A stretch of DNA of 51,261 bases from Candidatus Nitrosopelagicus sp. (GTDB lineage: Archaea > Thermoproteota > Nitrososphaeria > Nitrososphaerales > Nitrosopumilaceae), in the NCBI GenBank assembly GCA_028345575.1, contig JAOMDR010000008.1, positions 1 to 51,261 of the forward strand. Direction: 5' to 3'. The position numbers and the translations under genes are program-made. Under the pieces are notes generated by a model. It was given only the letters and a program-made list of their open reading frames with translations, was not told where the DNA came from and made no database searches. Positions 7,775 through 10,404 of the stretch are shown in pieces. The stretch's first letter is position 1. Each line of letters starts with the position of its first letter.

Positions 7775-8785
7775 ATGAGAATAATACTATGTGGATTCGG
7801 AGTAGTGGCACAAAGTTTTTCAGAGCTTTTGGAATCACGCACACATGATCTTTATTCTAAATTTGGATTAAAACCAAGAATTGTTGGTGTTTTTGATAGT
7901 AAAGGATGTGCATATGATGAAACAGGATTGGATTTAAAAAAATTAAATAAAATCAAAAAACAATCAGGTACGGTTAGAGGGTATGATAAATCAATACGAC
8001 AAATTCCAGGTAAAGATATTATTGAAAATATAGATGCAGATGTTTTAATTGAAACTACAGCAAGTAACTACAAAGATGCAGAACCTGGAATGAGTCATAT
8101 AATTTCTGCAATGAAAAGAAAAATGCACGTCATATCAGTAAACAAAGGACCGTTAGCACTTGCATTTCCATCATTGATGGAATTAGCAACATACAATCAA
8201 GTTATGTTGAGATTTAGTGGTACAGTTGGGGGCGGAACACCAATTTTAGATTATGCAAAAAATAGCTTGAGAGGAGAAAGAATATTATCTTTTCAAGGAA
8301 TTCTTAATGGTACAACAAATTACATACTAACAAACATGGCAGAAGGAATGTCATTTGATGATGCACTAAAAGATGCAAAATCAAAAGGATATGTTGAAGC
8401 TGATGAATCACTTGATCTGGACGGACTAGATGCAGCAGCTAAACTTGTCATTCTAGCAAATTGGATAATGGGCATGAAAGTTACAATGCCAGACATAATC
8501 AAAAAAGGAATTCGTAAAGTTAATACAAATGATATCAAAAATGCACAAAAAAATGGTTCCGCGGTGAAATTAATTGCATCTTGTGGAAAAGAACTAACAG
8601 TATCACCTGTAGAAATAAAAATTAATGACCCATTATGTGTAAATGGAACATTAAATGCAATATCATTCACATCCGAACATTCAGGTACTCAAACAATAAT
8701 TGGAAGAGGTGCAGGGGGAATAGAAACTGCAAGTGCAATATTGCGTGATTTAATTGACATTAGAAAAGAGATTACTAAATCTTGA
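7775..8785 (+). CDS. hom: Homoserine dehydrogenase
   Basis: Reduces aspartate semialdehyde to homoserine for threonine and methionine synthesis. The 336 residues contain an N-terminal Rossmann domain (ILCGFGVVAQSF), the NKGPLA motif, then the catalytic domain with GGGTPIL, GILNGTTNYIL and the EADESLDLDGLDAAAKLVILA signature. There is no C-terminal ACT domain, so feedback control by threonine through ACT is not expected. It follows msrB and overlaps the next gene at TTGA. Confidence 0.93.
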   Translation: MRIILCGFGVVAQSFSELLESRTHDLYSKFGLKPRIVGVFDSKGCAYDETGLDLKKLNKIKKQSGTVRGYDKSIRQIPGKDIIENIDADVLIETTASNYKDAEPGMSHIISAMKRKMHVISVNKGPLALAFPSLMELATYNQVMLRFSGTVGGGTPILDYAKNSLRGERILSFQGILNGTTNYILTNMAEGMSFDDALKDAKSKGYVEADESLDLDGLDAAAKLVILANWIMGMKVTMPDIIKKGIRKVNTNDIKNAQKNGSAVKLIASCGKELTVSPVEIKINDPLCVNGTLNAISFTSEHSGTQTIIGRGAGGIETASAILRDLIDIRKEITKS

Positions 8786-9252
8786 AGACTAATCTAATTT
8801 CAAAGAGTGAAACAACACAGTTACTGAAAATTGTTTCAGAAAAATGGAAAATAGACATACCTAAAGTAAAAAATCTGAAAGTCTATGAAATCGATAATGA
8901 AACACAGTTAATCACAGGCAGTGAAATAAAAATTTTAAAAATTAAAGATGAACATCTGCCATTCCTTAGTGAAATTTCAACATTAAAGAAATTCCCATAT
9001 GTTCAAGTGGACATGGGAGCAGTGAGATTCATGTGTAAAGGTGCAAATCTCATGAGACCAGGAATCAAAAAATTCTCAGAATTTTCAAAAAACGATATTG
9101 TATGTATTGTAGAAGAATCACAAAATAAATTTCTAGCAGTAGGAAAATCGGAAGTGGATAGTGTAGAACTGGAAAATATGGATAAAGGAGAAGTTTTGAA
9201 GAATTTACATTATATTTCAGACAAAGCGTGGGAAATTTCTAAAACACTTTAG
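8782..9252 (+). CDS. PUA-domain RNA-binding protein
   Basis: The 156 residues end in a PUA domain: YVQVDMGAVRFMCKGANLMRPGI, then the strand-rich FSKNDIVCIVEE and FLAVGKS. This is the archaeal MCT-1-like arrangement, an N-terminal pre-PUA part followed by PUA. The eukaryotic relatives act in translation re-initiation; an RNA or ribosome role is inferred here. The start is TTG, overlapping the hom stop as TTGA, which implies translational coupling. The gene ends one base before the convergent proteasome gene. Confidence 0.8.
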   Translation: MKTNLISKSETTQLLKIVSEKWKIDIPKVKNLKVYEIDNETQLITGSEIKILKIKDEHLPFLSEISTLKKFPYVQVDMGAVRFMCKGANLMRPGIKKFSEFSKNDIVCIVEESQNKFLAVGKSEVDSVELENMDKGEVLKNLHYISDKAWEISKTL

Positions 9253-9253
9253 A

Positions 9254-9847
9254 TTATTTGACATCTTCGGTGAATTCGTTGATTCCATCTTTGTTAACAA
9301 CTAAGACATCAATTCCATCACCACTAAATGAGTCTCTCATAGTTGCAGAACGAACTGCTTTTACAGCTAAATCAACAGCATCTTTTTCAGTCATGTTTTC
9401 TTTGAATTGAGGATCCAATACACCTAATGCCATTTCAGCACCAGTTCCAACTGCGGCATATTCATCAGGTAAAACAGAACCAAGAGGATCTAGAGTATAG
9501 ATTACAGGTTTGTCAGTCATACCACCAACAATTACTTGAGTCAATAATGGAAAGTATCTTCGTTCATACATCATATTAGACATCATCTTTGCAATTGTAT
9601 TTGGTGGTACATCACGTTTCAAATCCATTTTTCTAATTTTTGCTAATGCAGAAATTTGTAATGATAATAATTGCATGTCAGCTACCAGACCGGCACAAGT
9701 TGCACCAACTTTAGGAGTTATTGGGAAAGTTTTCTTTGTAGATTTACTAACTAGAAAATTACCATACGCAATTCTTTTTTCACTTGCGAAGACCACACCT
9801 TGATCAAATGTAATACCTACAGCGGTTGCACCTGGCATGTAACTCAT
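9254..9847 (-). CDS. psmB: Proteasome beta subunit without the catalytic Thr1
   Basis: 20S proteasome beta subunits form the inner rings of the core particle. This 197-residue protein has the whole fold: AVGITFDQGVVFASEKR near the start, AGLVADMQLL, VIVGGMTDKP, AAVGTGAEMALGVLD and MRDSFSGDGIDVLVV. The usual mature N-terminus is TTTVG. Here the same place reads ATAVG after MSYMPG, so the nucleophile Thr1 is alanine. Glu17, Lys33 and the RDSxSG motif remain. It is probably a structural or regulatory beta subunit paired with an active one elsewhere, as in archaea with two or three beta genes. TTTTATTG 26 bases upstream fits leaderless transcription. Confidence 0.92.
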   Translation of the reverse strand: MSYMPGATAVGITFDQGVVFASEKRIAYGNFLVSKSTKKTFPITPKVGATCAGLVADMQLLSLQISALAKIRKMDLKRDVPPNTIAKMMSNMMYERRYFPLLTQVIVGGMTDKPVIYTLDPLGSVLPDEYAAVGTGAEMALGVLDPQFKENMTEKDAVDLAVKAVRSATMRDSFSGDGIDVLVVNKDGINEFTEDVK

Positions 9848-9999: not shown

Positions 10000-10404
10000 T
10001 TAACGACGACGTCGTTTTGGAGCTGCTTTTCGCTTTGCTGCTTTACGTTTTGGAGCTGCATTACGTTTTGCTGCTTTACGTTTTGCTGGTGCCTTACGTT
10101 TTGCTGCTTTACGTTTTGGGGCTGCCTTACGTTTTGCTGCTTTACGTTTTGGGGCTGCCTTACGTTTTGCACCACCTTTTCTCTTTGCTGGTGCCTTACG
10201 TTTTGCTGCTTTACGTTTTGGAGCTGCTTTACGTTTTGGGGCTGCCTTACGTTTAGCGCCGCCTTTTGCTGCGCTTCTCTTACGTTTACGTGCTGCAGAA
10301 GCTTTCTTCTTAGCTGCTGCTGCAGTTGCGGCTGCTGCTCTTCTTTTGCGAGTGCGTGCTGCTTTTTTAGCTGCTGCGCTTCTCTTAGCTTTAGACATAG
10401 CCAT
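10000..10404 (-). CDS. Lys/Arg/Ala-rich histone-H1-tail-like protein
   Basis: The 134 residues are almost only K, R, A and P, in tandem AKRKAAPKRKAA-type units (about residues 50-130). The N-terminus (MAMSKAKRSAAAKKAARTRK) and an Ala-rich segment come first. Composition and unit structure resemble the disordered tail of eukaryotic linker histone H1 and bacterial Hc1/AlgP-type proteins, which coat DNA. A DNA- or RNA-compacting role is inference. The coding DNA is itself a tandem repeat, so copy number may vary between strains. A strong TATA-like TATACTATA (10431-10439) precedes it with a very short leader. Apparent long reading frames on the opposite strand here are only by-products of the repeat. 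Confidence 0.85.
   Translation of the reverse strand: MAMSKAKRSAAAKKAARTRKRRAAAATAAAAKKKASAARKRKRSAAKGGAKRKAAPKRKAAPKRKAAKRKAPAKRKGGAKRKAAPKRKAAKRKAAPKRKAAKRKAPAKRKAAKRNAAPKRKAAKRKAAPKRRRR
10045..10255. repeat. Tandem repeat inside the H1-like gene
   Basis: Units of the type TTTGCTGCTTTACGTTTTGG, with short GGAGCTGC or GGGGCTGCC linkers, recur many times on the plus strand. They encode the AKRKAAPKRKAA pattern on the minus strand. Unit boundaries are approximate. Confidence 0.75.

Follow-up and report, generated by a model that had tools for sequence, protein, structure and literature searches.

The window analysed here, a stretch of 51,261 nucleotides from Candidatus Nitrosopelagicus sp., a member of a group of ammonia oxidisers, encodes a predicted non-catalytic proteasome beta subunit, hereafter beta1 (Table 1). 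It lies between a convergent PUA-domain gene and a repetitive open reading frame. Proteins that are 100% identical to the window beta1 are present on Candidatus Nitrosopelagicus contigs (L064-L066).

Table 1. Features at the beta1 locus, in window coordinates. Hyphens in motifs precede residue 1.
Feature	Position	Strand	Remarks
PUA-domain gene, convergent with beta1	8782..9252	+	no sign of proteasome membership
beta1, predicted non-catalytic proteasome beta subunit	9254..9847	-	197 aa, PG-ATAVG, starts MSYMPGATAVGITFDQGVVFASEKRIAYGNFLVSKSTKKTF
Thr2 codon	9824..9826	-	Thr2 invariant in beta1
GCA codon, Ala1 at the nucleophile position	9827..9829	-	
N-terminal tail MSYMPG, six residues	9830..9847	-	ends in Pro(-2) Gly(-1), though autolysis requires Thr1
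Repetitive Lys/Arg/Ala-rich open reading frame adjoining beta1	10000..10404	-	134 residues, without Pfam match

A sequence-only reading of this DNA had proposed that the mature N-terminus of beta1 reads ATAVG in place of TTTVG, and that Glu17 and Lys33 are retained. Both proposals are borne out by a HMMER alignment to 1pma_B, from what we take to be the Thermoplasma proteasome. Here, PG-ATAVG of the window protein lies opposite TG-TTTVG without a gap, which places Ala at the Thr1 position. Thr2, Val4, Gly5, Glu17, Lys33, Gly47, Asp166, Ser169 and Gly170 are kept. Apart from the nucleophile, the catalytic set is therefore represented by E17, K33, D166 and S169, with Thr instead of Ser at position 129. 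A catalytic Thr at another position had been named as the outcome that would speak against this reading; inspection by eye of the open frame back to the upstream stop revealed no TTxVG.

The protein belongs to the Pfam Proteasome family (PF00227; 166 bits, cut-off 22.4). Against the NCBIfam equivalog for archaeal proteasome beta subunits (TIGR03634) it scores 210.3 bits, which is under the cut-off of 224 that is reached by the second beta subunit of the same genome (L001; 229) and by the relative L230 (255.5). With Ala1, it lacks the N-terminal nucleophile of a Thr1 peptidase.

The gene is under purifying selection, with a dN/dS of 0.02-0.08 against seven of the eight relatives compared, the eighth pair being saturated. 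Ala1 is present in 80/80 named relatives (the best 80 of 137), encoded by GCA in 73, GCT in six and GCG in one. On both grounds, a sequencing error or a pseudogene was rejected.

Loss of Thr1 across the phylum

The 243 beta1 records from the phylum have Ala at residue 1 in 225 cases, Gly in nine, Gly by register in six, Ser in three and Thr in none. The six rows assigned by register read LPG-TxxG and are one residue shorter, which makes their Gly uncertain. The records comprise 80 named contigs (the best 80 of 137 relatives, one of which, L103, is titled as a bacterium) and 163 genomes, span 55 family codes in addition to the named contigs, and may include some genomes in both parts. Excluded were alpha and alpha-like open reading frames, beta1 fragments that lack the N-terminus (L345 of G144, L311 of G027) and L003, a copy of L144; G144 enters the count via the edge fragment L353. 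A draw of 121 genomes across the phylum gave a readable residue 1 in 117, and a class draw of 150 genomes was read in part. The conserved Ala that the earlier reading suggested looking for across Thaumarchaeota is thus found in this group and beyond it. Confinement of the loss to Thaumarchaeota is rejected, as non-Thr1 beta1 proteins also occur outside. In all 61 phylum genomes in which both betas were read, a beta with Ala, Gly or Ser at position 1 is paired with a Thr1 beta.

The three Ser1 proteins (L242, L252 and L253) belong to the Sulfolobus-like family f30. A role of Ser1 as a spare nucleophile is unlikely, because position 17 is Val in all three.

Beta1 was not found in four of the 121 phylum-draw genomes (G169, G191, G204 and G210; 70-86% complete). 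Each of these yielded alpha and beta2, with an additional unread stretch of 126 bases in G210. Beta1 was also not found in G005 (94% complete), nor in G047, G017, G039, G051 and G033 (66-86%). We count these genomes against the explanation favoured below, together with G112, in which a third beta was seen but no beta2.

Beta1 and beta2 were initially sorted by their N-terminal motif, so that the absence of Thr from beta1 would by itself be circular. This circularity is removed by trees and profiles built without the N-terminus, from residue 7 onward. In a tree of 118 rows (reduced from 194), the 82 non-Thr1 betas all fall on one side of a single branch (SH-aLRT 97), and a careful search on 56 rows recovered the same split (bootstrap 98, SH-aLRT 96). 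Profiles applied to all rows assigned 242 records to beta1, with zero Thr1 rows, and 96 genomes to beta2, with Thr1 rows only. The narrowest margins were 25 bits (fragment L311) and, for the next row, 38 bits. For one beta1 row, presumably G006, the profile run took an upstream Arg as residue 1, G006 itself reading Gly; the 243rd record, presumably the contig-edge fragment of G144, was absent from the run. In both trees and profiles, the window beta1 groups with Saci0662-like proteins, apart from the Thr1 betas.

The simplest reading of these sequences is that Thr1 would have been lost once, through a single duplication and a single loss that preceded the divergence of the sampled lineages; as the trees are unrooted, the direction of change is part of that simplest reading only. 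Several independent losses are not needed, since the trees accommodate a single change. An old local duplication would leave both beta genes near each other, and they lie no more than 17 kb apart in at least 21 genomes (partner read as beta2 in 14, and judged by identity to beta1 alone in seven). The inert beta subunit is an ancient, widespread class. The age of the loss and its extent across the sampled phylum go beyond the sequence-only reading, as does the Asn166 of beta2 described below.

In 220 beta1 records, Thr2, Lys33, Gly47, Asp166 and Gly170 are each present in all 220, Arg19 in 219, Ser169 in 217 and an acidic residue (Glu/Asp) at position 17 in 217. Beta1 thus keeps a nearly invariant pseudo-active site minus the nucleophile. 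Upstream of residue 1, Gly(-1) is found in 209/220 (six of unsure register) and Pro(-2) in 173/220. In 36 genomes with both betas, the mean pairwise identity amounts to 0.479 in beta1 against 0.466 in beta2, with beta1 above beta2 in 60% of 630 pairs, so that the constraint on beta1 is similar to that on the catalytic subunit. The retention of K33, G47, D166 and S169 exceeds the apparent structural need, a point against a purely structural role.

Beta1 as a subunit of the 20S core

The window genome, 86% complete with 1.10 Mb in 41 contigs, contains three PF00227 genes: beta1, an alpha subunit (L002) and the beta2 subunit L001, which reads HG-TTTVG. The second psmB with Thr1 that the earlier reading called for is therefore present. 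Thr1 is found in all 96 beta2 proteins read, and in 48 tabulated genomes beta2 has fixed Asp17, Lys33 and Ser129, as well as Thr2 (48/48).

In the PDB, the window beta1 is matched best by 6z46_H, presumably from the Sulfolobus Saci0662 particle; on this basis, Saci0662 is the closest solved relative. L230, which lies on the same side of the tree, shares 187 of 189 aligned residues with this chain and has the N-terminal motif ELP-ATAIG. The window protein is 41% identical to L230. The chain 6z46_H begins one residue before TAIG.

An inert structural beta is already known from Sulfolobus; the present analysis adds how widely it occurs, that one split separates it from the Thr1 betas, that its pocket is intact, and that its partner carries Asn166. 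As reported in the S. acidocaldarius study, alpha and truncated Saci0662 form a stable 28-subunit particle without activity, while Saci0909 and alpha alone give no stable complex (PMC4569737). When all three are co-expressed, Saci0909 joins the ring at a lower ratio and brings activity, and Saci0662 assembled better with its tail removed (PMC4569737). A second beta is also recorded in the MEROPS account of 2017 for S. acidocaldarius and P. furiosus, with more subunits in Asgard archaea (PMC5753285). The study states a Thr equivalent to T1 for both Sulfolobus betas (PMC4569737). From the alignment, the Saci0662 residue so named seems to be Thr2, shifted by one position and preceded by Ala1. Such a shift would explain why the particle is inert, and it speaks against a nucleophilic Thr2.

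We consider it very probable that beta1 is a dedicated structural pseudo-enzyme of the 20S core, in which Thr1 was lost once and beta2 is the minority cutting subunit. The single loss would predate the divergence of the sampled lineages of the phylum. Beta1 would probably fill most of the inner rings and dock the alpha rings, whereas beta2 (L001 in the window genome) would occupy a minority of ring places and supply the cutting. Without Thr1, beta1 would be unable to cleave its own six-residue tail, which may stay in place or be removed by an adjoining beta2. Yeast T1A subunits show neither processing nor cutting, and the mutation as such leaves the beta5 site unaltered (PMC4792962). The non-catalytic status proposed by the earlier reading is supported by the loss of the nucleophile together with the inert Sulfolobus relative (PMC4569737), and its proposal of a mixed beta ring with fewer active sites is likely to hold in the window organism, by analogy with that relative.

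As a refinement of this explanation, the pocket may have been selected as a binding site, with the protein's own tail or peptides permanently inside, so that beta1 plugs itself. The frequent Gly(-1) and Pro(-2) in a protein without self-cleavage fit such a plug. In the yeast T1A subunits, the substrate channel holds the prosegment, still uncut and sharply turned at Gly(-1) (PMC4792962). The better assembly of the Sulfolobus relative once its tail was removed (PMC4569737) speaks against the refinement, however, and the kept residues may merely hold the fold. On balance we regard it as rather unlikely.

It is considerably less probable that beta1 and beta2 reside in separate particles, the beta1 particle serving a non-proteolytic function in storage, as a scaffold or in a chaperone-like role. 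Alpha and the Sulfolobus relative of beta1 do assemble alone in vitro, but the catalytic Sulfolobus beta forms no stable complex with alpha when the other beta is missing (PMC4569737), and the proximity of the two beta genes described above also argues against separation. Least credible of all is Thr2 as the real nucleophile, with the tail cut after Ala1 and Thr2 replacing Thr1: this would explain the invariant Thr2 and the kept Lys33/Asp166 pocket, but Thr2 is equally fixed in the catalytic beta2, so that its conservation needs no catalytic reason, and the truncated Saci0662 particle, which the start of 6z46_H suggests to be cut just before Thr2, is inactive (PMC4569737).

Homomeric archaeal 20S particles have a single beta with Thr1 and 14 sites. 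Their subunit (1pma) belongs to the same family, and its E17, K33 and D166 align with the window beta1. In the eukaryotic 20S, three of seven betas cut (PMC13022661). The likeness lies in non-catalytic subunits sharing one ring with catalytic ones, as would be the case in the window organism. In contrast to the seven distinct subunits of the eukaryotic ring, the window genome would provide one inactive and one active type. The paired betas offer a simple two-component model of how a proteasome can lose active sites and live with the dead ones, as the eukaryotic ring has come to do too.

Asn166 in beta2 and a third beta subunit

Position 166 of beta2 is Asn in 56 of the 57 genomes read from the window's order, over 17 family codes, the exception being G260 (f55). 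Outside this order it is Asp in 37 of 39 (exceptions G241 and G204), including the two Sulfolobus-like genomes read (f30). All 56 Asn166 genomes have Thr at beta2 position 169, and the motif around position 166 in L001 is RNIGTG. With a beta1 that lacks Thr1 and a beta2 that lacks Asp166, no beta found in the window genome has the full canonical set. As no beta1 of any relative examined has Thr1, cutting must rely on the second subunit, which itself seems weakened. In yeast beta5, the D166N mutation still permits cleavage of the propeptide, but activity is reduced ("drastic", or about 60%) and growth is impaired (PMC4792962). Among the listed titles and openings of abstracts, we found neither a natural Asn166 nor a naturally Thr1-less beta outside Sulfolobus, which we do not put forward as a claim of absence from print.

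The particle in the window's order is thus probably doubly attenuated, with few sites, each of them slower. A fuller account of such a proteasome, in an order that includes ammonia oxidisers, can be put forward tentatively. An ancestral, obligatory and inert beta1, whose pocket is complete except for the nucleophile, would fill most of the ring, and the fixed Asn166 of beta2 would alter the proton shuttle. The ring would stand half-way between the homomeric and the eukaryotic one, and slow, low-site proteolysis may have been selected in low-energy nitrifiers. We hold this account as a whole to be possible, with the balance somewhat against it. The fixed Asn166 makes it possible to ask directly whether a natural proteasome is tuned in its rate by position 166, and whether Thr169 is compensating.

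The complement of PF00227 genes varies among the relatives. G046, G003 and other Nitrosopumilaceae have four each, two of them alpha-like; the incomplete window genome shows one alpha. A third beta (L255, L256, L257, L258, L259, L370, L372, L375) adjoins a divergent second alpha; of the 101 genomes from the window's order, 26 contain a match to this beta with at least 63% identity. It mostly starts with Met-Thr-Thr, which would expose a Thr1 without the need for propeptide cleavage. In G112 (97% complete), beta2 was not found and beta1 and the third beta are present, the latter seemingly as the sole Thr1 beta.
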